NCBI GenBank assembly: GCA_020072845.1
Contig: JAIQGF010000009.1
Location: 248,001-312,000, forward strand
Length of the DNA: 64,000 nt
Direction: 5' to 3'
Source: Terriglobia bacterium
Lineage (GTDB): Bacteria > Acidobacteriota > Terriglobia > Terriglobales > Acidobacteriaceae
Below the pieces are notes generated by a model, which made no database searches, had not been told where the DNA came from, and saw only the letters and a program-made list of their open reading frames with translations. Shown here piece after piece: positions 156 through 44,202 of this stretch. The position numbers and the translations under genes were made by a program. Within the stretch, counting starts at the first letter, position 1; each line of letters starts with the position of its first letter.

Positions 156-156
156 C

Positions 157-186
157 GGTCGACGGTCGATAGTCGACGGTCGATGG
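157..186. repeat. Heptad repeat, GGTCGAC type
   Basis: Four 7-bp units read GGTCGAC, GGTCGAT, AGTCGAC, GGTCGAT. The same unit recurs at 1766, 5735, 7965 and 22006-22188. Confidence 0.85.
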
Positions 187-3065: not shown

Positions 3066-3145
3066 AGTTATCGGTTGTCGGTTCTCGGTTATCGGTACCG
3101 GAGCCAAGAAACCGAGAACCGAAAACCGATAACCGATATCCGATA
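3066..3145. repeat. Heptad inverted repeat, TTATCGG type
   Basis: The left arm (3066-3098) has units TTATCGG, TTGTCGG, TTCTCGG, TTATCGG. The right arm (3109-3145) is the complement with units such as AACCGAG, AACCGAA, AACCGAT. The downstream CoA-transferase gene starts 8 bp after the right arm. Confidence 0.85.
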
Positions 3146-5732: not shown

Positions 5733-5734
5733 AA

Positions 5735-5766
5735 CGGTCGACGGTCGATGGTCGATGGTCGACGGC
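5735..5766. repeat. Heptad repeat, GGTCGAC/GGTCGAT type
   Basis: Four units CGGTCGA-C, GGTCGAT, GGTCGAT, GGTCGAC, a direct array without a second arm. Same dialect as 157-186. Confidence 0.85.
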
Positions 5767-6104: not shown

Positions 6105-6180
6105 AGCTCTTAGCTGTCAGCTCTTAGCTCTTGGCCAGACGGGTTTCAGCTAAGAGCTAAAAGCTAAGAGCTAAGAGCTG
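6105..6180. repeat. Heptad inverted repeat, AGCTCTT type
   Basis: The left arm (6105-6133) has units AGCTCTT, AGCTGTC, AGCTCTT, AGCTCTT. The right arm (6147-6180) is the complement with units CTAAGAG and CTAAAAG. The hcrC ATG at 6183 comes two bases after the array, whose last AAGAGCTG is the only Shine-Dalgarno-like sequence available. Confidence 0.9.
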
Positions 6181-6182
6181 GA

Positions 6183-6680
6183 ATGAAAAAAGAACTCGTA
6201 TCGCTAAAAATCAACGGGCGCGTGCACGAAATCGCCCTCGCGCCCAACCGGCTGCTGCTGGACGTGTTGCGTCAGGAGCTCGGGCTGACCGGATCAAAGC
6301 GCGGCTGCGACGATTCCTCGTGCGGCGCCTGCACCGTGCAACTGGACGGCGTGCCGGTGCTGTCGTGCGCGCTGCTGGCGGCGTCGTGCCAGGAGCAGGA
6401 GATCACGACCGTCGAGGGCATCGCCGAGCACGGTTCGCTGGCGGCGATACAGAAGGCCTATGGCGACTGGGGCGGCGCGCAGTGCGGCTACTGCACGCCC
6501 GGCTTCATGATGACCGTGGATCACCTGCTGACGGAGAATCCCAATCCATCGGAAGACGAGATTCGTGGCGCGTTGAGCGGCAACCTGTGCCGCTGCACCG
6601 GGTACATGCAGATGTTCCAGGCGATCAAGGCGGCAATCGAAGCGGAGCGGAAGGGAAGAGCGGCGGTGTCGACGAAATGA
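6183..6680 (+). CDS. hcrC: 4-hydroxybenzoyl-CoA reductase, small 2x[2Fe-2S] subunit
   Basis: A 165-residue iron-sulfur subunit of the xanthine oxidase family. The N-terminal plant-type 2Fe-2S site is Cys42, Cys47, Cys50 and Cys62, and the C-terminal site is Cys101, Cys104, Cys136 and Cys138 in CGYCTPGF and LSGNLCRCTGY. It passes electrons between the molybdenum centre and FAD. It overlaps the large subunit by 4 bp (ATGA). Assignment to 4-hydroxybenzoyl-CoA reductase rather than a generic xanthine or CO dehydrogenase rests mainly on the medium subunit, see 9322-10299. Confidence 0.85.
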   Translation: MKKELVSLKINGRVHEIALAPNRLLLDVLRQELGLTGSKRGCDDSSCGACTVQLDGVPVLSCALLAASCQEQEITTVEGIAEHGSLAAIQKAYGDWGGAQCGYCTPGFMMTVDHLLTENPNPSEDEIRGALSGNLCRCTGYMQMFQAIKAAIEAERKGRAAVSTK

Positions 6681-9322
6681 GCGAGTTCTCGACCATCGGC
6701 AAGCCGGTCGCATTCGTGGACGCGGCGGAGAAAACCACCGGCCACGGGAAATACACCGACGACCTCAGCGTCCCGGGAATGCTGATCGGGAAGATCCTGC
6801 ATTCGCCGCACCCGCACGCACGGATCAAGAGCATTGACACGTCGCGAGCGCGGGCGCTGCCGGGCGTGGTGGCTGTGGTCACCGGCAAAGACGCGCCGAC
6901 CACCTACGGAATTCTGCCCATCGGGCACGACGAGCACGCGCTGGCGCTGGACAAAGTGCGCTACGTCGGGGACAACGTGGCGTGCGTGGCGGCGGTGGAC
7001 GAAGCCACGGCGGAAAAGGCGTTGGAGCTGATTGATGTCGAGTACGAACTGCTGCCGGCGTGGTTCGATCCTGAGCAGTCCATGAAGGCCGAGGCCGACT
7101 TTATTCACGAGAGCCGGCCGCACAACATCGAAAAGGAGTATCACCACACGTTCGGCGATCCGGACAAGGCGTTCGCCGATGCGGATTATGTGGCCGAGGC
7201 GCGCTACCTCGCCAACGAGGTGACGCACGCGGCGATGGAGCCGCACTCGACCTTGGCGGCGTTCGAGATCGACCCGCACACCGGAAAGGCGGGGCGGCTG
7301 ACCGTGTGGTCATCCACGCAGGTGCCGTATTACCTGCAACACAAGCTCTCGCTGGTGCTGGACATGCCGATGTCGCAGATCCGCGTGATCAAGCCGCTGG
7401 TGGGCGGCGGCTTCGGCGGCAAGAGCGAGGTGATCCCGCTGGAAATCACGGCGGCGATCGCGGCGCGCGCGGCCAACGCTCCGGTGAAAATCACCTACAC
7501 GCGCGAGGAAGTGTTCTGGGCGCACCGCGGGCGTCCGCGCACCATCATCGACCTGAAAATGGGTGCGAAGCATGACGGGCGGATCGTCGCAGTAGCAGCG
7601 CGCGTTATCCAGGACGGCGGCGGGTACTGCTCCTACGGTCCGGTGACAATTCTTTATTCCGGCGCGCTGCTGGGCGCGCTCTACGACATTCCCAACGTGC
7701 GCTATGACGGCTATCGCGTGCTGACCAACAAGCCGGCATGCGGCGCGATGCGCGGGCACGGGACGGTGAATGTGCGCTTCGCCTTCGAGTCGCAGCTGGA
7801 CGAGATTGCAGCGGCGCTGAAGCTGGACCCGGCGGAGGTGCGGCGGCGCAATCTCTTAAAGCCTCCCTGCGTGACGGTGAACGGCCTGCGGGTGCTGAGC
7901 TATGGGCTGCCGGAGTGCATTGAGAAGGTTGTCGCGGCGTCGCGATGGAACGAAAGGCGTGTGGCCGTCGACGGTCGACAGTCGACGGTCGACAAAGCGC
8001 AGAAGCGCGGTCTCGGGATTGCTTGCTCGCACTACGTCAGCGGGGCATCGAATTCCATCATTCGTTCCGACATGCCGCACTCGACGGTGAACATCAAAGT
8101 GGACCGCGACGGGGGCGTGGTGGCGTACACGGGCGCGTCGGAAATCGGGCAGGGGTCGGACACGATGACGGCGCAAATTATCGCCGAGGTCCTGGGCTGT
8201 GACCTGGCGCGGGTGAAAGTGGTTGCCGCCGACACCGATCTCACACCGATTGATCTCGGGTCGTATTCCAGCCGGGTCACGTTTATGAACGGGAACGCGT
8301 CGCTGCGGGCCGCCGAGGACGTCAAGAAGCAAATCACGGCTGCGGCGGCGCGCAAACTGAATTGCGCGCTGGAAGACGTGGTGTTTCGCGGAGACAAGGT
8401 TTTCCGCAAAGGCGTTGGGACCGCGGGAGCTAAGGATTCGGAGGCGGAGATTCTCGAGCGCAAGGACGCTCCTCGTGGTCCCGCGGGCGAGGGCGCCCGC
8501 GCCACAGGTGACGTCAAAGTCCAGGGCCGCGTCGAAGGCCAGACCCTGCGCGGGTCGGTGCAGCAGAAGAGAAAAGAGGAAGGGCCGAAGGACCGGATGA
8601 GCTTCGAAGAAGCTGTAGTCGCCGCAATTGATTTCAGCGGAGCGCTCACCGGGACGGGATCGTACGCACCGCCTCCGGAAGCGCGTGGCGGGCAGTTCAA
8701 GGGCGCGGGAGTCGGGCCGTCGCCGGCGTACTCCTACTCGGCGCAGGTAGCCGAGGTCAGCGTGGACGAGGAGACCGGCGAAGTCACGGTGCACAAGATC
8801 TGGGCGGCGCACGATTGCGGCCGCGCTTTGAACCCGGTTGCGGTGGAAGGCCAAGTGATCGGCTCGGTGTGGATGGGCCTGGGACAGGCGCTGGAAGAAG
8901 AGATGGTGTGGAAAGACGGCCTGCTGATGAACCCCGGCCTGCTGGAGTACCGGTCGCCATCGGCGGCGGAGTCGCCGGAGATCGAGTGTTTCATTGTCGA
9001 GAGCATCGATCCCGAGGGGCCGTTCGGCGCCAAGGAAGCCGGCGAAGGCTCGCTGGCGGCGACGATTCCGGCGATCTCGAACGCGATCTACGATGCGGTC
9101 GGCGTGCGCTTGCGCGAGGCGCCATTCACGCCCGAGCGCGTGCTGGCCGCCCTGCGCGCGAAAAAAGGCGAAAAGAAGTTAGACATGACGCGCGATGTTG
9201 ATCCCACCGCGCCCACGACGTTCCCGGAGCATGGCGGCGCGTTGTGCTTCAGAGGCAAAGGCCCGGCGCGACATCCACTCGATGTGGCGCGGGCGCCCTC
9301 GCCTGCGGAAGGGGACGATTAG
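6677..9322 (+). CDS. hcrA: 4-hydroxybenzoyl-CoA reductase, large molybdopterin subunit
   Basis: An 881-residue molybdenum hydroxylase catalytic subunit that would remove the para-hydroxyl of 4-hydroxybenzoyl-CoA to give benzoyl-CoA. Motifs include VGGGFGGKSE, ACGAMRGHG, EIGQGSDT and the C-terminal GAKEAGEG with the active-site glutamate. It is about 110 residues longer than the classical subunit (about 770). The extra length is at least partly repeat DNA: a heptad array (7965-7993, read as VDGRQSTVDK), a low-complexity segment around 8400-8600 holding a 24-bp element, and a tail holding the same element inverted. Start ATG 6677 overlaps hcrC; the stop overlaps hcrB by one base. Confidence 0.8.
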   Translation: MSEFSTIGKPVAFVDAAEKTTGHGKYTDDLSVPGMLIGKILHSPHPHARIKSIDTSRARALPGVVAVVTGKDAPTTYGILPIGHDEHALALDKVRYVGDNVACVAAVDEATAEKALELIDVEYELLPAWFDPEQSMKAEADFIHESRPHNIEKEYHHTFGDPDKAFADADYVAEARYLANEVTHAAMEPHSTLAAFEIDPHTGKAGRLTVWSSTQVPYYLQHKLSLVLDMPMSQIRVIKPLVGGGFGGKSEVIPLEITAAIAARAANAPVKITYTREEVFWAHRGRPRTIIDLKMGAKHDGRIVAVAARVIQDGGGYCSYGPVTILYSGALLGALYDIPNVRYDGYRVLTNKPACGAMRGHGTVNVRFAFESQLDEIAAALKLDPAEVRRRNLLKPPCVTVNGLRVLSYGLPECIEKVVAASRWNERRVAVDGRQSTVDKAQKRGLGIACSHYVSGASNSIIRSDMPHSTVNIKVDRDGGVVAYTGASEIGQGSDTMTAQIIAEVLGCDLARVKVVAADTDLTPIDLGSYSSRVTFMNGNASLRAAEDVKKQITAAAARKLNCALEDVVFRGDKVFRKGVGTAGAKDSEAEILERKDAPRGPAGEGARATGDVKVQGRVEGQTLRGSVQQKRKEEGPKDRMSFEEAVVAAIDFSGALTGTGSYAPPPEARGGQFKGAGVGPSPAYSYSAQVAEVSVDEETGEVTVHKIWAAHDCGRALNPVAVEGQVIGSVWMGLGQALEEEMVWKDGLLMNPGLLEYRSPSAAESPEIECFIVESIDPEGPFGAKEAGEGSLAATIPAISNAIYDAVGVRLREAPFTPERVLAALRAKKGEKKLDMTRDVDPTAPTTFPEHGGALCFRGKGPARHPLDVARAPSPAEGDD
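7965..7993. repeat. Heptad repeat inside hcrA
   Basis: Units CGTCGAC, GGTCGAC, AGTCGAC, GGTCGAC in the same dialect as the intergenic arrays at 157 and 5735. The reading frame stays open through it. Confidence 0.85.
8483..8506. repeat. 24-bp GC-rich element, copy 1 (inside hcrA)
   Basis: GCGGGCGAGGGCGCCCGCG followed by CCACA. The reverse complement occurs at 9283-9306 with one mismatch. It contains the self-complementary core GCGGGCG/CGCCCGC. Confidence 0.75.
9283..9306. repeat. 24-bp GC-rich element, copy 2 (inverted, 3' end of hcrA)
   Basis: Inverted copy of 8483-8506, 23 of 24 bases identical. It encodes part of the non-conserved C-terminal tail of the large subunit and ends 16 bases before the hcrB start. 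Confidence 0.75.
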
Positions 9323-14709: not shown

Positions 14710-15846
14710 ATGTCCAGCAGCACTCTTACGCCCAAAGGCTTGGAAGGCGTCATCGCGGCGGTTTCCAGCATTTGTTTTATCGATGGCGACCGCGGCATCC
14801 TGGCCTACCGCGGCATTGACATTCACGAGCTCGCCGACAATTCCACGTTCGAGGAAACCTGCTACCTGCTCTGGTTCGGCAAGCTGCCCAACCGAGCCGA
14901 GCTGCGCGAGTTCGCCCGGGCGCTCGCCGACGAACGTAAGCTTGATACCGCCATCATCAACCTGCTGCGCCAGGCTCCGCGGCACGCGCTGCCCATGGAC
15001 GTGTTGCGCACGGCGGTTTCCGCTCTCTCTTTCTACGATCCCGAGGAGAGCCTCAACACCCCGGAAGCAAACCTGCACAAGTCGCTGCGGCTGACCTCCC
15101 AACTCGCCATGATCGTGGCTGCCTATGACCGCATCCGGAAAGGCCGCCCGGTTGTAGAGCCCGACCGTTCGCTGTCGCATGCCGCGAATTTCCTGCTGAT
15201 GTTGAACGGCGACCCGCCGTCGAAAACCGCCGAGCGCGCCCTGGACATCGCCCTGATCCTGCATGCCGACCACGAACTGAACGCGTCCACCTTCGCGGCG
15301 CGCGTGACCGCCGCCACGCTGTCGGACATGCATTCGGCCATCACCTCCGGCATCGGCGCGCTCAAGGGGCCGCTGCACGGAGGCGCCAACGAAGCGGTGT
15401 TCAAGATCCTGGCAGAAATTGCCAAGGCCGGCGCCGACCCGGTGGAGCACATCAAGGGCATGCTGGCGCAAAAGAAAAAAATCCCGGGCTTCGGACACCG
15501 CGTGTATCACACCGAGGACCCGCGTGCCACGCACCTGCGTCAGATGTCGCGCGAGCTGGGCGAGTCCAGCGGGCAGGCGAAATGGTTTGAGTACTCCAGC
15601 AAGATCGAACAGTTCATGAAGGCCGACAAGAAGCTAAACGCCAACGTGGACTTCTATTCCGCCTCGACCTATTACACGCTGGGCATCGAGCTTGACCTGT
15701 TCACCCCGATCTTTGCCGTCTCGCGCATCAGCGGCTGGACGGCGCACGTGATGGAGCAGCTCGGGGACAACCGCCTGATCCGGCCTCGCGCCGATTACGT
15801 TGGCCCGGCGTACCCGCAGCGCTACGTTCCCATTGACCGGCGCTGA
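14710..15846 (+). CDS. gltA: Citrate synthase
   Basis: A 378-residue citrate synthase of the shorter (type I-like/2-methylcitrate synthase length) bacterial class, which condenses acetyl-CoA and oxaloacetate in the TCA cycle. Catalytic residues are His224 (KGPLHGGANE), His263 (GFGHRVYHTEDPR) and Asp314 (NVDFYS). The start ATG at 14710 has GAGGAA just upstream. The gene diverges from the S46 peptidase and is followed by a good terminator, so it is probably monocistronic. A 2-methylcitrate synthase role cannot be excluded from sequence alone. Confidence 0.92.
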   Translation: MSSSTLTPKGLEGVIAAVSSICFIDGDRGILAYRGIDIHELADNSTFEETCYLLWFGKLPNRAELREFARALADERKLDTAIINLLRQAPRHALPMDVLRTAVSALSFYDPEESLNTPEANLHKSLRLTSQLAMIVAAYDRIRKGRPVVEPDRSLSHAANFLLMLNGDPPSKTAERALDIALILHADHELNASTFAARVTAATLSDMHSAITSGIGALKGPLHGGANEAVFKILAEIAKAGADPVEHIKGMLAQKKKIPGFGHRVYHTEDPRATHLRQMSRELGESSGQAKWFEYSSKIEQFMKADKKLNANVDFYSASTYYTLGIELDLFTPIFAVSRISGWTAHVMEQLGDNRLIRPRADYVGPAYPQRYVPIDRR

Positions 15847-15871
15847 TTCGACGATGGGAAGAAGAAGTTGG

Positions 15872-15905
15872 AGCGCGCTCGCCCGGGAGCGCGCTTTACT
15901 TTTGC
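15872..15905 (+). terminator. Intrinsic terminator after citrate synthase
   Basis: A 9-bp perfect stem AGCGCGCTC / GAGCGCGCT (15872-15880, 15887-15895) followed by TTACTTTT. The 22 bases leading into it recur before the terminator at 31307. Confidence 0.75.
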
Positions 15906-15918
15906 GAAGATGAATCCC

Positions 15919-16074
15919 ACCACGGAGGCACGGAGACACGGAGCAGATTTGGTAATTGGGTAATTTCGTAATTTGGTAATTTCAGAACCTCATTTGGACA
16001 GAGGCCGGGCCGAAATTACCAAATTACAGAATTACGAAATTACCAATTCCGATTGCTTCCGTGTCTCCGTGGTA
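15919..16074. repeat. Doubly nested inverted repeat, two motif families
   Basis: The outer arms are ACCACGGAGGCACGGAGACA-type at 15919-15945 and its complement at 16055-16074. The inner arms are TAATTGGGTAATTTCGTAAT-type at 15949-15983 and the complement at 16012-16046. The inner arm motif is found again at 19489-19604. Confidence 0.85.
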
Positions 16075-21582: not shown

Positions 21583-24500
21583 TTGCTGAAACTCAAGAAG
21601 CTCCAGATCCTCGGGTTCAAGTCATTCTGCGACCGCACTGAACTGGGTTTTCACGGCGACGGCATCGCTGCCATCGTCGGCCCCAACGGTTGCGGCAAAT
21701 CCAACATCTCCGACGCCATCGCCTGGGTTTTGGGCGAGCAATCGGCGCGCACCCTGCGCGGCGCGCGCATGGAAGACGTTATCTTTGCCGGCACGCGCGA
21801 CCGCAAGCCCACCGGCATGGCCGAAGTTTCCCTCACCCTGATCGACCCTGACGTTTACGACGGGCCGGAAGCATTGGCCGAGCCGGAAATTGAAATTCAC
21901 GACGAGATGTCGGAAGCGGACTGGGACGAAGCCGCGTTGCGCGAAAAAGCCGCCGTCGAGACCGACGAATACCTTTCCGACGTGCAGCCCGGCCAGGTGG
22001 ACGAAGTCGACGGTCTACGGTCGACGGTCGACGGCCAAAACAGCGGTGCGCCCGAATCGAACCTGGGACCGCAGACCACCCCGGCCAACAGCTCCGCCGA
22101 TCCTGGTGCTGAATCCGCCAACGCCATCGAGCAACCGTCAGCGACTTCCGAGTTGCCGCCGTCGACCGTCGACCGTCGACCGTCGGCCGTGGTTTTGAAA
22201 ATCCGCCGCCGCAAGTTCAGGCCCAGCTTCAAGGCCGGCGAGATCGTGGTCACGCGCCGCTTGTTCCGCTCCGGCGACAGCGAGTACCTGCTCAATGGCA
22301 AGCTCTGCCGCCTGCGCGATATCCAGGACATCTTCATGGGCACCGGGCTGGGCCCGGAGTCCTATGCCATCATCGAGCAGGGAAGAATCGGCCAGATTCT
22401 CTCCAGCAAGCCCACAGACCGGCGCGCCATCATCGAGGAGGCGGCCGGGATTACCAAGTTCAAGACGCGCAAGCGCCTCGCCGAAGCGCGGCTCGAGGAA
22501 GCCAAGCTGAACCTGGCGCGGGTCAACGATATCTTCGAGGAAGTCACGCGCCAGATGAACTCGCTCAAGCGCCAGGCCTCCAAAGCCGAGCGCTACGCGC
22601 GCCTGCGCGACGAAATGCGCGGCAAGCTGCGCCTGGTGCTGGCCGGCAGGTTCGCGCAACTCCGCCGCGAGAGCGAAGAACTGGAAGCGACCCTCATCGG
22701 CCTCGGGGAAGAACTGCGTGCGAAAACGCAGGTGGTCGGCGAGCTGGAACTGGAGCAGGCCGAAGGCACGCAGCGCGGCTATGCTATCGAAACCGACGTG
22801 CGCAACAATGGCGAGCGCTTGTCGGCAATCACGCGCGAGATTGATCGCGCATTCTCGCGCCAGCGCACCAACGAGGAGCGCTGCGCCGAGCTGACACACC
22901 GCGCCGAATCCGCCGCCGCCGAACTCGCGCAGACACGCCTGCGCCTGGTGGGCATCGAGGCGGAACGGGAATCGCATCGCGGGGTTTTGCAAGCGGCCGA
23001 GGGCGAGGTGGCCGCCGCGCAGCAACAAGCCGCCGCGGCGCAGCAGGAAGCCACCATCGCCGCCGGCGTGCTGGCCGACATCGAGTGCCGCCAGGAATCA
23101 CGCCGGGCCGCGATCATGGAAGCAGTTGCCGCCGCTTCCGCGGTCCGCGAGCAGCTTACGCGCGCGCAGGAGCACATCGCCGGCCTGGAACGCGAACTGC
23201 GCCGCCTGAATCACGAAATCGAATCCGGGCGGGCGCAGATTGAGACCTTCGGCGACCAGCGCGGGCAGATCGCCTTCGAGTTCGAAAATGCCTCCGAACG
23301 CGTGCAGGCGCTTGCCGAGGACATCGAGCAGACGCGCGCCGCGATCGGCGAGGTGCGCATGGCGGAGACCGAGTCCAAGCGCCGCCTCGATACCCTGCGC
23401 GCCGAGTACGCCACCGCGCTGGGCAAAAAGGGTTCGCTGGAAGCGGTGATTGCCGAGCACGGTTATTCCACCGATTCGGTTCGCCGGCTGTTCCAGTCCG
23501 GCGCGCTCAACAGCGGTTTTGCGCCGGTCGGGGTGCTCGCCGATTTCCTCGAAGTCGATGACCGCGTCGAGCACGTGGTCGAGGATTTCCTGCGCGACGA
23601 GCTCAACTTCATCGTGGTGAAATCCTGGGACGCCGCCGACGAAGGCATGCGCCTGCTGCGCACCGACGTCGAGGGCCGCGCTACCTTCCTGGTGCATCCC
23701 AATGACTCGCAGGCGCGCTTCTCGTTCGTGCTCGACGAGGCCGCGCACCATGCGCCCGCGCACGCGCAACTGGTTCGACCGTTGAAGCAGGCCATCCGCG
23801 TGCTCAACGGCTTCGGCAAATCCCTGGAAGTCATCCTGCCCAAGCTGCGCGACGGCTACCTCGTGCCCGACTCGGGAGTCGCGCGCGAGTTGGCCCTGTC
23901 GAACCCCGACGCATTCTTTCTCTCCGAATCGGGCGAGTGCTTCCACAATGTCACCGTGACCGGCGGCAAGCAGCGCAGCGAGGGCCCGCTGTCCATGAAG
24001 CGCGAGTTGCGCGACGTGCTGCGCGTGCTCGCCGAAATGGAACGGGCGCTGGGCGGCGAAGAGCGCAAGGCATTGATCCTGGCGCGCGAGATCGCCGACC
24101 TCTCCTCGCTGCTGGAGCGGCTGGAAACGGAGAAGCGCGAGGCCGACAGGGCCGCGCTCACCTCCGGTCATGACCTGCGCCAGTTGGAGAGCGAGGTGAC
24201 GCGCATCGCCGAGCGGGTGGCGCTGGCGGAGCGCGAAGCGCTGAACATCACCGCCGAACGGGCGGCGAACGAGGCGCTGATTGCCGAACAACAGGCCGAA
24301 CTTGGCGCTCGCGATGCCCGCCGTGCCGCGCTGGAGAACGAAGCCGCCGCGGCGCAGGAAAGTCTTGCCGGGCTGCGCGCCGCGCGCGATGCCGCCGCCC
24401 ACGTTGCCTCCGAGATGAAGGCGCAAGTCGCGGCCGTGGAAGAGCGGCGCCGCGCCGCGTCGGCTGCGCTGTCCCGGGTTGCCACCATGTTCGCCGAGAT

Positions 24501-25548
24501 CGCTTCGCGCGTGGAGTCGCTGGAGTCGCAGCAGCAGATGGCCGCCGCCGAACAGGCGCAGCGCGAGATCGAAAACCTGCAGATTTCCGAGCAACTGGAT
24601 TTGCTGGGCGCGCAGAAAGAGCAGGCCGAAGCGCGCGAAGCCGAACTGCAGGCCGAATCCGAACAGGTGCGCGGCCGGCTGGTCGAAATCGAGCACCAGC
24701 TTCGTAGCGCGCGCCTGGAAATGGACTCGGTGCGCGACCGCCGCGGAGAACTGTCGGCGCAGGCCGCCAAGCTGCAGTCCGATCAGCAGCACATGGCGGA
24801 AACCTGCCTGAACGAGCTCGGTGTGGCCGCCGGCACGCTGCTCGCTGACGAGTCCGTTGCCCAGCTCGGCCCGGAACTGCTCGCCCTGGAGGAGACCGCA
24901 TATCGCGAGCTGCGCGCGAAACTTGACAACATGGGCCCGGTGAACATGATGGCCCTGGAGGAGTATCAGGAGGCGGCGCAGCGCCACGGATTCCTGGAAA
25001 CGCAACGCAAAGATTTGATGGACTCCATCGAAAATACGCAGAACGCCATTCGTGAAATCGACACCATCTCGCGCCAGAAATTCCAGGAAGCGTTTGCCGC
25101 CATCAACATCAATTTCCAGGCGGCATTCCGCAAGTTGTTCGGCGGCGGCAACGGATTCATGCGGCTCACCGACGAAGAGAACGCCGCCGACAGCGGCATT
25201 GACGTGGTGGCGTCGCCTCCGGGCAAGAAGCTGCAGAACGTGCTGCTGCTCTCCGGGGGAGAAAAAGCGCTGACGGCCCTGGCGCTGCTGGTCGGCATCT
25301 TCCAGTACCAGCCGAGCCCGTTCTGCATTCTCGACGAAGTGGACGCTCCGCTTGACGAAAGCAACATCGGACGCTTTACCGAACTGGTGCGCGAGATGAG
25401 CGATACCACCCAGTTCATCCTCATCACGCACAGCAAGAAGACCATGAGCATTGCGCCGGTCATGTACGGCGTCACCATGCAGGAGCCCGGAGTTTCCAAG
25501 CTGGTCTCGGTGCGCTTCCACGAAAACGCGCAGGCGGCGACCGCGTAG
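21583..25548 (+). CDS. smc: Chromosome segregation protein SMC
   Basis: A 1321-residue SMC ATPase, 130-170 residues longer than usual. The N-terminal head has KLQILGFKSFCDRT and Walker A GPNGCGKS (33-40). Long coiled coils flank a hinge around 620-780. The C-terminal head has LLSGGEKALTALALL (near 1222) and Walker B CILDEVDAPLDESN (near 1248). The excess is an acidic, Pro/Ser-rich insertion at about 91-217 in the N-terminal head, between SLTLIDPD and GEIVVTRRLFRSG, where other SMCs have a short loop. It contains two opposed heptad arrays. TTG at 21583 is chosen for the AAGGAG six bases upstream. ScpA and ScpB are not in the window. Confidence 0.93.
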   Translation: MLKLKKLQILGFKSFCDRTELGFHGDGIAAIVGPNGCGKSNISDAIAWVLGEQSARTLRGARMEDVIFAGTRDRKPTGMAEVSLTLIDPDVYDGPEALAEPEIEIHDEMSEADWDEAALREKAAVETDEYLSDVQPGQVDEVDGLRSTVDGQNSGAPESNLGPQTTPANSSADPGAESANAIEQPSATSELPPSTVDRRPSAVVLKIRRRKFRPSFKAGEIVVTRRLFRSGDSEYLLNGKLCRLRDIQDIFMGTGLGPESYAIIEQGRIGQILSSKPTDRRAIIEEAAGITKFKTRKRLAEARLEEAKLNLARVNDIFEEVTRQMNSLKRQASKAERYARLRDEMRGKLRLVLAGRFAQLRRESEELEATLIGLGEELRAKTQVVGELELEQAEGTQRGYAIETDVRNNGERLSAITREIDRAFSRQRTNEERCAELTHRAESAAAELAQTRLRLVGIEAERESHRGVLQAAEGEVAAAQQQAAAAQQEATIAAGVLADIECRQESRRAAIMEAVAAASAVREQLTRAQEHIAGLERELRRLNHEIESGRAQIETFGDQRGQIAFEFENASERVQALAEDIEQTRAAIGEVRMAETESKRRLDTLRAEYATALGKKGSLEAVIAEHGYSTDSVRRLFQSGALNSGFAPVGVLADFLEVDDRVEHVVEDFLRDELNFIVVKSWDAADEGMRLLRTDVEGRATFLVHPNDSQARFSFVLDEAAHHAPAHAQLVRPLKQAIRVLNGFGKSLEVILPKLRDGYLVPDSGVARELALSNPDAFFLSESGECFHNVTVTGGKQRSEGPLSMKRELRDVLRVLAEMERALGGEERKALILAREIADLSSLLERLETEKREADRAALTSGHDLRQLESEVTRIAERVALAEREALNITAERAANEALIAEQQAELGARDARRAALENEAAAAQESLAGLRAARDAAAHVASEMKAQVAAVEERRRAASAALSRVATMFAEIASRVESLESQQQMAAAEQAQREIENLQISEQLDLLGAQKEQAEAREAELQAESEQVRGRLVEIEHQLRSARLEMDSVRDRRGELSAQAAKLQSDQQHMAETCLNELGVAAGTLLADESVAQLGPELLALEETAYRELRAKLDNMGPVNMMALEEYQEAAQRHGFLETQRKDLMDSIENTQNAIREIDTISRQKFQEAFAAININFQAAFRKLFGGGNGFMRLTDEENAADSGIDVVASPPGKKLQNVLLLSGGEKALTALALLVGIFQYQPSPFCILDEVDAPLDESNIGRFTELVREMSDTTQFILITHSKKTMSIAPVMYGVTMQEPGVSKLVSVRFHENAQAATA
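22006..22188. repeat. Heptad inverted repeat inside smc
   Basis: The left arm (22006-22035) has units GTCGACG, GTCTACG, GTCGACG, GTCGACG. The right arm (22157-22188) is the complement (CCGTCGA units). About 120 bp of coding sequence lie between them. The frame is preserved; the arms read as LRSTVDG and PSTVDRRPS. Confidence 0.88.
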
Positions 25549-27390: not shown

Positions 27391-27396
27391 AACGAA

Positions 27397-27424
27397 CGGA
27401 CAGTCATAAACGGACAGTCATAAA
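27397..27424. repeat. Perfect 14-bp tandem duplication
   Basis: CGGACAGTCATAAA occurs twice in a row, 28 bp in total, which is 4 x 7 bp. It lies just upstream of the Fis-like gene's Shine-Dalgarno. Confidence 0.8.
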
Positions 27425-27436
27425 AGGAGAGGTCCC

Positions 27437-42373: not shown

Positions 42374-42393
42374 CCCGGCACTAAAGTGCCGGG
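42374..42393. terminator. Hairpin CCCGGCACTAAAGTGCCGGG
   Basis: A perfect 9-bp stem followed on the + strand by CTATTTT; on the - strand preceding side there is AAAGAATAG. It may be a terminator or a dispersed compact hairpin like 10402-10421. Confidence 0.5.
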
Positions 42394-42399
42394 CTATTT

Positions 42400-44202
42400 T
42401 CATTCGCCGCTATGCGGCTGGTGGTCCTGACCACTGACCACCGGCCATTGCTTCTTCATCGCCTTAGCGAATTTTTCTGTAGTCAAGGTGTTGAGCACGT
42501 CTTCTTTCGTCAGCCAGGCGCGGCGGGCCTGCACGACGCCGTACTTGATTAGTTCCAGGTGCGTGGTGTGGTGGGAGTCAGTGTTGATGACGATCTTCAC
42601 ACCACGGTCCTTGGCCATGCGCAGATGGCGATCGCAGAGGTCGAGGCGATCGGGATACGCGTTCAACTCCATAGCGACCAGGTTGCGCGCGGCGGCGGCG
42701 AGCACGGCTTCCATGTCGAACGGATAGGCATCGCGCCGCAGCAGGATACGTCCCGTGGGATGGCCGATGACGGAGACGTGCTTGTTCGCGATAGCTTTCA
42801 GCAGGCGGTCGGTCATCTGCTGCGGTTCCTGGTTGAAGGCCGAGTGGACGCTGGCGATGACGATATCCATTTCTTCCAGCACGGAGTCGGAGAGGTCGAG
42901 CGAGCCGTCAGCGAGGATGTCCAATTCAATGCCGGCAAAGATGCGAATGCCGGCGGCCTTCTCGCTCGCCTTGCGGATTTTCTTGACGTGCGCCAGCGCT
43001 CGCTTGTCGTCGAGGCCGTTGGCCATCGCCAGATTTTTGGAATGGTCGGTGATGGCCATGTACTTGTAACCGCGAGCGCGGGCGGCGTCGGCCATCTCCT
43101 CGATGGTGCACTTGCCGTCGGTTTCCACGGTGTGCATGTGCACGTCGCCCTGGAGGTCGCGCTGCTCGATGAGCTTGGGCAAGCGGTGCTCGATGGCGGC
43201 TTCGATTTCGCCGCTGTTTTCGCGCAGCTCAGGAGGAGGGCAATCCATGCCGAGCTTGGCGTAGATTTCCTCTTCCGTCTTGCCGGCGACGCGCTTCTCG
43301 CCTTCGAGCTTGACCAAGCCGTATTCGTTGAGCGTGTAGCCGAGCTTGAGCGCGCGCTGGCGCAGGGCGACGTTGTGCGATTTCGAGCCGGTGAAATACT
43401 GCATGGCGGCGCCGAAGGATTCCGGCGGGAGCAGGCGCACGTCCACCTGCATGCCGCTGCTCAGCTTGAAGCTGACCTTGTTTTCCCCGCGGGCGATGAC
43501 CTCGAGAATGCCGGGGAAGCCCACGATCTGCTCGATGACGGCGTTGCGCTGCTCCTCGTGCAGGCAGCACTTGCCGGTAATGAGGATGTCGAGGTCGCCG
43601 ACGGTTTCGCGTCCGCGGCGCAGCGAGCCGGCAGGCGTGACCTTGTCCACGCCCGGCAAATGCGCCACGTGATCGCTGAGTTTCTGCGCGATCTCGTCGG
43701 CGTGGTCGAGGCAGAAGCGGCCGGAGATGCGGCGGTAACTCTCGATTGCCTTGAGGATTTTCTGTTCCTGCTTCTCGCCCATGCGCGGCAGCTCGCGCAG
43801 CTTGCCGGCGCGTGCCAGCTTTTCCACGCCTTCCAGATCGCTGACCTGGTGCGCGCTCCACAGCAGAGCGATGGTCTTGGGGCCGAGGCCCTGGATCTTC
43901 AGCAGCTCAAGCATGGAAGGGTGGTACTTCTTGAGAAGTTCGGCGTGCGTTGTGACCCGGCCGGTCTCGTAGAGGTCTTTCAGGTGGGCGCTCATGCCTT
44001 TGCCGATGCCGGGAATTTCGAGCAGCTTCTTGGGTTCGGGTATCAGCGCCCAGATGGGCTGGTCGAGCGCTTCGATGGCTTCGGCGGCGCGGCGATAAGA
44101 ACGGATACGGAAGGGATCGTCGCCGTTGATCTCCATCAAGTCGGCCGTTTCATTGAGGATGGAGGCGATGGCTTTGTTGTCGAGCGGGCGTTGTTCGGGC
44201 AT
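42400..44202 (-). CDS. polX: DNA polymerase/3'-5' exonuclease PolX
   Basis: A 600-residue family X polymerase. The N-terminal helix-hairpin-helix regions (IPGIGKGMSAHLKDL; IQGLGPKTIALLW) precede a polymerase-beta core with GSLRRGRETVGDLDIL containing the metal-binding aspartates and VDVRLLPPESFGAA. The C-terminal PHP nuclease domain has DVHMHT, ITDHSKN, GIELDIL and DSHHT. It functions in base-excision-type gap repair. The last 15 or so residues (QWPVVSGQDHQPHSGE) are encoded by a heptad array, so the natural C-terminus may be altered. Confidence 0.93.
   Translation of the reverse strand: MPEQRPLDNKAIASILNETADLMEINGDDPFRIRSYRRAAEAIEALDQPIWALIPEPKKLLEIPGIGKGMSAHLKDLYETGRVTTHAELLKKYHPSMLELLKIQGLGPKTIALLWSAHQVSDLEGVEKLARAGKLRELPRMGEKQEQKILKAIESYRRISGRFCLDHADEIAQKLSDHVAHLPGVDKVTPAGSLRRGRETVGDLDILITGKCCLHEEQRNAVIEQIVGFPGILEVIARGENKVSFKLSSGMQVDVRLLPPESFGAAMQYFTGSKSHNVALRQRALKLGYTLNEYGLVKLEGEKRVAGKTEEEIYAKLGMDCPPPELRENSGEIEAAIEHRLPKLIEQRDLQGDVHMHTVETDGKCTIEEMADAARARGYKYMAITDHSKNLAMANGLDDKRALAHVKKIRKASEKAAGIRIFAGIELDILADGSLDLSDSVLEEMDIVIASVHSAFNQEPQQMTDRLLKAIANKHVSVIGHPTGRILLRRDAYPFDMEAVLAAAARNLVAMELNAYPDRLDLCDRHLRMAKDRGVKIVINTDSHHTTHLELIKYGVVQARRAWLTKEDVLNTLTTEKFAKAMKKQWPVVSGQDHQPHSGE
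42418..42443. repeat. Heptad repeat, GTGGTCC/TGACCAC type (3' end of polX)
   Basis: Units GTGGTCC, TGACCAC, TGACCAC, CGG; internally self-complementary. It is read in frame as the tail of PolX. Confidence 0.75.

Follow-up and report, generated by a model that had tools for sequence, protein, structure and literature searches.

Small dispersed hairpins termed Rickettsia palindromic elements (RPE) are described as lying both between genes and in frame within conserved protein genes, where they occupy 19 reading frames (PMC2229807). The same source counts NEMIS (107 bp) and ERIC among the bacterial MITEs with in-frame fusions, distinguishes two forms in Neisseria, one of which has stops in all frames and is almost exclusively intergenic, and reports demonstrated activity for one RPE-bearing enzyme, the product of gmk. 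Dispersed heptameric repeats are described from Xanthomonas (GGGAATC; 70–75 convergent pairs in two genomes and 7–11% of copies intragenic) and from Nostoc (GGGGA(T/C)T; 68% intergenic) (PMC4692102). Geobacter metallireducens has elements of four heptanucleotide repeats with the consensus GGACCGG in 49 places (PMC2700814), and the TAACTGA direct repeats of Beggiatoaceae are mostly intergenic, those in frame having the stop-free orientation or lying at the end of the gene (PMC4679880). Among the papers listed in searches of the open-licence literature, none deals with in-frame heptad elements in acidobacterial proteins.

Here we describe heptad arrays in the genome of a Terriglobia bacterium, centred on the smc gene of a 64,000-nt stretch (the window). 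The genome itself is referred to as G000, the other three sequenced members of its genus as G001–G003, and further relatives by higher numbers.

The extra residues of the SMC head are an old host linker

The smc gene is open throughout, from a TTG start at the position where the matches of relatives begin (Table 1). Between SLTLIDP and GEIVVTRR the protein has 128 residues in place of the 7 found in B. subtilis Smc (5h66), with the flanking parts of the head aligning normally; these ~121 extra residues agree with the 115–125 given in the preliminary description, which took them to be derived from repeats. The origin proposed there does not hold. Extra residues are present at this place in all 70 genomes measured (own genome included), 64 of which have no heptad array at the period-7 threshold given below, and the two arrays together explain only ~20 residues. 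Insertion length is 129–135 aa in the genus (n = 4, own genome included), 75–159 aa in the remaining family (n = 41), 64–94 aa in the remaining order (n = 11) and 21–77 aa in the remaining class (n = 14). For this sample 80 genomes (own plus relatives) were searched: two (G040, G060) gave no match, eight further genomes were left out of the count as their matches were cut, fragmentary or not fetched, and the length that the period-7 survey gave for G043 was excluded for its wrong anchor.

The conserved motifs WDEA, near the start of the linker, and VVLKIRRRKF, at its end, are largely invariant in 20 family sequences and surround a hypervariable middle that is unalignable. The span from QPG to VVLK is 65–71 residues in the genus, against 79 in G024 and 68 each in G032 and G041 without the element. 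Among named records, most acidobacterial entries gave long matches to a 300-residue query, whereas the matches in the listed Clostridia and Bacilli (~525 nt) were too short for the insertion; long matches also occurred in two records titled otherwise, as Rhodanobacteraceae (L191) and Deltaproteobacteria (L196). Since a long insertion with conserved motifs occurs without heptads across relatives, the extra residues of SMC represent a long-established linker of the host protein rather than repeat DNA. The linker of G016 (L026) has a 12-nt tandem repeat, encoding SSIN peptide repeats, ahead of WDE.

The protein was modelled with AlphaFold2 from a 62-sequence alignment (mean pLDDT 72; a previous run on 20 close sequences had been poor, at 46). 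Most of residues 144–212, which contain nearly all of both arrays, fall below pLDDT 50, and this low-confidence segment is placed between the confidently predicted head strands 79–87 and 220–228, with a helix at 116–134. The best matches in a structure search with the model were SMC heads, the TM-scores being modest because of the disordered part.

Two opposed heptad arrays in the smc linker

As had been reported, two opposed GGTCGAC arrays lie in frame within the intact smc gene, 122 nt separating their arms, and they are of the same unit type as intergenic arrays of the window (Table 1). The inverted-repeat arms (22008–22035 and 22158–22185) are 28 nt each and 96% complementary, and the element, its arms made of heptads, measures about 185 bp overall. 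Both arrays together account for ~20 residues of the insertion, whose best period-7 score is 20 of 21, whereas codon shuffles (n = 20) reach at most 13; P is ~0.0003, the floor of 3000 codon shuffles. Folded as RNA, the array stretch has a minimum free energy of -95.7 kcal/mol (z = -3.8 versus dinucleotide shuffles). At gathering scores, Rfam models matched the whole window only as tmRNA and Acido-Lenti-1, so that no known RNA family was found at the arrays; the Acido-Lenti-1 match lies at 42374–42419.

Table 1. Heptad arrays and associated features of the window (coordinates are window positions; a dot stands for no strand).
Feature	Position	Strand	Basis or remark
smc (SMC chromosome partition ATPase)	21583..25548	+	SMC_N and SMC_hinge Pfam matches; matches of relatives start at 21583
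Lineage-wide insertion in the SMC N-terminal head, residues 91–218	21853..22236	+	70/70 genomes measured; 7 residues in B. subtilis Smc
Left heptad array of smc, unit GTCGACG, 4.1 copies	22006..22034	+	Encodes ~DGLRSTVDG
Stretch between the smc arms	22035..22158	+	30–57% nt identity in the genus vs 74–94% in the flanks
Right heptad array of smc, unit CCGTCGA, 4.6 copies, inverse orientation	22159..22190	+	Encodes ~PSTVDRRPSA; adjoins VVLKIRRRKF
Intergenic GGTCGAY-unit array	156..184	+	Array search
Intergenic heptad hairpin, CGGTTNT unit	3067..3145	.	Same unit type at the site in G002
Intergenic GGTCGAY array	5734..5765	+	In G002 the site holds a heptad hairpin of GTCGTTA type
Intergenic heptad hairpin, AGCTNTT unit	6105..6179	.	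Different unit, TTAGCCG/TTGGCC type, in G002
In-frame GGTCGAC array in xanthine dehydrogenase-type gene (6677–9322)	7967..7994	+	Array search, family match, relatives

Among the genomes measured, GGTCGAC arms in smc were seen in the four genomes of the genus only, where they border the variable middle on both sides. Comparison of the smc genes of relatives thus divides the earlier account: the insertion is nearly everywhere free of heptads, which removes it as a product of the repeats and comes near to the outcome that the preliminary description had named as its own refutation, whereas the arms are specific to the genus. They are largely complementary in G000, G001 and G002 and eroded or partly lost in G003, where the best inverted 20-mer match (14) equals the best of 4 shuffles and the gene remains open. 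An assembly artefact is unlikely, because the arms share one site in four separately assembled genomes (in eroded form in G003).

When the linkers of all 70 genomes were scored for period 7 (threshold 15 of 21), six passed, namely those of the four genus members, G006 and G048; the other 64 lay below, the nearest miss being G030 with 14. In G006 the linker array is of the GAGTAGG type (P 0.0003), and its unit recurs across that genome (106 matches versus 33 for the reversed-pattern control); in G048 it is of the CCCCTNN type (P 0.0007), with the unit likewise dispersed (44 matches versus 1). These data would fit three or more separate entries of differing heptad units into the SMC linker. No clean pair of empty and filled smc sites was found among the relatives, and no target site is visible there because the linker is too variable.

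Heptad arrays are dispersed and many lie within genes

Over 312 kb, the contig that holds the window contains 42 arrays of period 7 and 8 of period 8, compared with 0–2 for each of the periods 4, 5, 6 and 9–12, and a Markov-chain shuffle of the same 312 kb contains none. Two or more arrays, mostly inverted although not in all cases, were present in 15 of 57 clusters. Many heptad units coexist on this contig, several of them A+T-rich, and the window too holds many units other than GGTCGAY. Three consecutive copies of GGTCGAY (at most one mismatch, overlapping matches counted) were found 101, 65, 46 and 11 times in G000–G003, versus 5, 7, 6 and 1 times for the reversed pattern, and not at all in 8 genomes from 8 other genera of the family.

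The stretches around ~100 of the 101 matches in G000 resolve into 61 clusters (one may be missing), 36 of them intergenic and 25 inside gene calls, the calls being made with our own codon-usage script. The proposal that such elements can insert or grow inside coding regions is therefore borne out more generally than it was first made, and the Xdh and QueA loops described below add to it. Twenty-three of the 25 in-gene clusters fall in 21 family-matched proteins and two in frames without an NCBIfam match; the array proteins of loci L155 and L167 have none at 1e-10. The proteins concerned are QueA, ferrochelatase (HemH), B12-dependent ribonucleotide reductase (NrdJ, two clusters), error-prone DNA polymerase, MnmE, SelD, RecG, OppD, MnmG (two clusters), a lipid kinase, HisS, ArgS, TatD, an aconitase-family protein, MetH, TGT, Xdh, SMC, a Xaa-Pro dipeptidase and a PolY-like protein, the last two with matches that score under the NCBIfam curated cut-offs, together with a protein that we take to be an Lhr-like helicase. 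In HemH, Xaa-Pro dipeptidase and HisS the array is N-terminal, where a wrong choice of start is possible. Apart from smc, most in-gene copies are single arrays of 20–34 bp and not hairpins.

Of the 14 arrays that are open in all six frames, 4 lie in gene calls, versus 2 of the 56 others (Fisher p 0.013), in a comparison in which the smc arms split one per class, so that the six in-gene arrays are partly dependent on one another. This weakly supports the survival of stop-free in-gene copies. In background samples of 40–60 kb per genome, which are too small to judge the dispersal of a unit, the own genome gave no match for 9 of the 13 in-gene arrays tested, and the TGT unit of G031 was no more frequent in its own genome than its control. 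Some other genome's sample matched 11 of the 13, and cross-genome matches outnumbered those within the own genome. In part, the heptad units thus appear to be a vocabulary shared across the family, their abundance differing by genome; therefore an own-genome match of a unit is weaker evidence than it looks.

Other repeats were also noted in the window. At 15831–16069 an outer hairpin, its sides made of CACGGAG-type repeats, encloses an octad hairpin of AATTTGGT type, and at the orthologous place G002 has a similar outer hairpin only; this suggests that the inner element was inserted into the loop of the outer one. A 14-bp unit, AACGGACAGTCATA, is doubled in tandem at 27395–27428, just ahead of a ribosome-binding-site-like AAGGAG, and is single in G002 and G003. 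At 157–1888 G000 has an aldehyde dehydrogenase-like gene (identified by eye) with flanking repeats, and G002 has ~75 bp in that place.

Orthologous loops hold different heptad units

Of 15 xdh loci, 12 were usable (three from the genus, eight from the family and one from another family), one of the remaining three being spurious and two having no pattern match. The Xdh loop measures 33 nt in seven of the eight family relatives from other genera and 51 nt in the eighth. It measures 60 nt in G000, where it contains the GGTCGAC array (27 nt more than the 33-nt loop), and 66 nt in G002, where it contains a GGCCAAC-type array (33 nt more), in frame in both. At the same site (L133; window 7963–7995) G001 has a 174-nt in-frame stretch with a TGTCATTCCGAGCG-type repeat, which belongs to a different repeat family.

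Further loops were scored for period 7 against codon shuffles (~45 tests, with P values uncorrected for their number); G021 was dropped for MnmE, where its flanks matched poorly, and one relative for RecG, where its stretch reads N. Arrays were present in the QueA loop of all four genus members and of none of eight genomes from other genera (4/12 versus codon shuffles), and in the RecG loop of G000 and G001 only (2 of 10 genomes tested). For MnmE, the loop just after the NKxD motif reached P ≤ 0.013 for period 7 in 7 of 11 genomes, of which four reached P ≤ 0.001; some five units are involved, and G000 is the sole genus member with an array. In G003 the mnmE loop after NKSDL (L278) contains a TGTCATCCCGAGCG-type repeat and no heptad array. 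For TGT, clear arrays of differing units (P 0.0005) were found in 6 of 12 genomes (G000, G001, G002, G009, G013 and G031), and G017 has a weaker array (P 0.022); none was found in G006, G007 and G012, and the doubtful matches of G003 and G021, being very short or extending into the flanks, were not counted as clear.

The orthologous MnmE and TGT loops therefore contain different heptad units in different genera. Some of these units are dispersed in the genomes concerned. GGTCAGY, the unit of both the TGT and the MnmE array of G009, has 35 matches in that genome, both sites included, versus 0 for the control. CAGTTYY is dispersed in G031 (102 matches) and G009 (101 matches; control 0), is present in 8 of 9 genomes searched and has 6 matches in G017, the MnmE site among them.

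Discussion

We consider it probable that insertion or growth of heptad arrays is widespread and that selection keeps those in-frame, stop-free copies that lie in flexible loops. Under this explanation, the long and largely disordered acidic linker between two strands of the SMC head is an ancient host protein segment, in which a GGTCGAC hairpin element would have become established, in frame, before the four sequenced species of the genus diverged. One arm would have come to lie at each border of the hypervariable part, and the element would have been drifting since, with its arms partly lost in G003. More generally, heptad arrays would spread by insertion or local copying and mostly end up between genes, the survivors within genes being those that kept the frame, had no stop in that frame and lay in a tolerant place. 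The copies would thus come from elsewhere, by movement or copying, instead of originating in place, and selection on those in genes would probably amount to tolerance only. The loops that bear them are presumably flexible, as the model predicts for that of SMC.

The most serious rival, above all for single-array copies, is that nothing moves: arrays would arise in place by slippage in a 7-nt register within unconstrained linkers, and hairpins by template switching. Slippage was proposed by Mrazek et al. 2007, as cited in PMC4679880, in whose survey heptanucleotides outnumbered other long simple repeats in most genomes. The 12-nt repeat of the G016 linker indicates that tandem growth does occur in an SMC linker, in-gene copies are mostly single arrays, which fit local growth as well as insertion, and most in-gene units have no second own-genome copy in the small background samples. 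However, independent events would be expected to yield arbitrary units, and several in-gene units are dispersed elsewhere in their own genome (GGTCGAY in G000, the smc units of G006 and G048, and GGTCAGY in G009, with 35 matches versus 0). The dominance of period 7 over 312 kb (42 arrays, plus 8 of period 8, versus 0–2 at each of periods 4–6 and 9–12) also stands against it, and we regard slippage in place as rather unlikely to be the general explanation.

It is much less probable that the smc arms are kept for a functional RNA hairpin in the mRNA (or a cruciform), which might for example pause translation inside the head. The strength of the fold (-95.7 kcal/mol, z -3.8) and the largely complementary arms of G000, G001 and G002 would suit such a role. 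Yet in G003 the pairing has fallen to shuffle level (14) while the gene stays open, erosion that speaks against a conserved RNA hairpin in smc, and 64 of the 70 linkers measured have no arrays. That the whole ~120-residue insertion is repeat-derived, as its possession of the arrays and its absence from B. subtilis Smc might suggest, is hardly credible, being contradicted by its presence in 70/70 genomes, by the conserved WDEA and VVLKIRRRKF and by heptad-free insertions of similar length throughout the family and order.

Returning to the reading in which arrays spread and are tolerated, we tentatively raise a bolder version, which we think possible although the odds are somewhat against it. 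Certain housekeeping loops of the family (the SMC head linker, the MnmE segment after NKxD, the TGT loop and Xdh) may be reused docking sites, where lineages refill the same codon site in frame from the shared heptad vocabulary, usually with a unit abundant in the own genome, the new replacing the old. If true, this would amount to a self-copying, unit-switching repeat system that continually rewrites protein loops, with a dedicated copying activity behind it. Matches to PF01797, the family of the Y1 (RAYT) transposases that move REP elements, are present in all four genus genomes (9, 9, 12 and 1 in G000–G003). These counts do not track those of GGTCGAY except in G003, over four points only, and the one Y1 gene compared with the array clusters (contig C9, 183346–183675) has its nearest clusters several kb away; no mobilising enzyme was linked to the arrays.

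Tandem heptads, short repeats that are usually regarded as curiosities of intergenic DNA, are thus found in frame in ~20 conserved proteins of one acidobacterium, a scale comparable with that described for RPE (19 reading frames, PMC2229807). The differing units at orthologous loops across species offer a natural series for testing spread, unit switch and tolerance. The SMC insertion also exemplifies a trap, corrected here, in that the insertion itself is not the repeat.

In their behaviour, the arrays resemble RPE and the other MITEs with in-frame fusions, as far as these are described in PMC2229807. Like RPE, GGTCGAY copies lie both in frame within conserved genes (25/61) and between genes (36/61), and the frames that contain them are open and are shared by several species. 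Unlike RPE, described there as 105–146 bp long with terminal inverted repeats, the arms here consist of heptads in tandem, a single array of 20–34 nt makes up most of the in-gene copies, and one site can hold different units in different species. In sequence type, they resemble the heptameric repeats that are dispersed in Xanthomonas and Nostoc (PMC4692102) and in Geobacter (PMC2700814). As in Xanthomonas and Nostoc, seven-base arrays are dispersed genome-wide and include convergent inverted pairs; those genomes are each described with one G-rich, quadruplex-prone unit (PMC4692102), whereas many units, several of them A+T-rich, occur here, and the heptads here lie in frame in orthologous housekeeping loops, unlike those of that description. 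The Geobacter elements are presented as a predicted regulatory RNA with one consensus per family, in an account that, in the part available, does not mention protein loops (PMC2700814). The TAACTGA repeats of Beggiatoaceae are likewise heptad arrays with an intergenic majority, and are described as mostly lying just upstream of start codons, with a single inverted set in the genome studied and with related heptads rarely repeated (PMC4679880). Set against these descriptions, the arrays reported here are distinguished from RPE and from the heptameric repeats alike by the diversity of units within one genome and by the occurrence of different units at one codon site.
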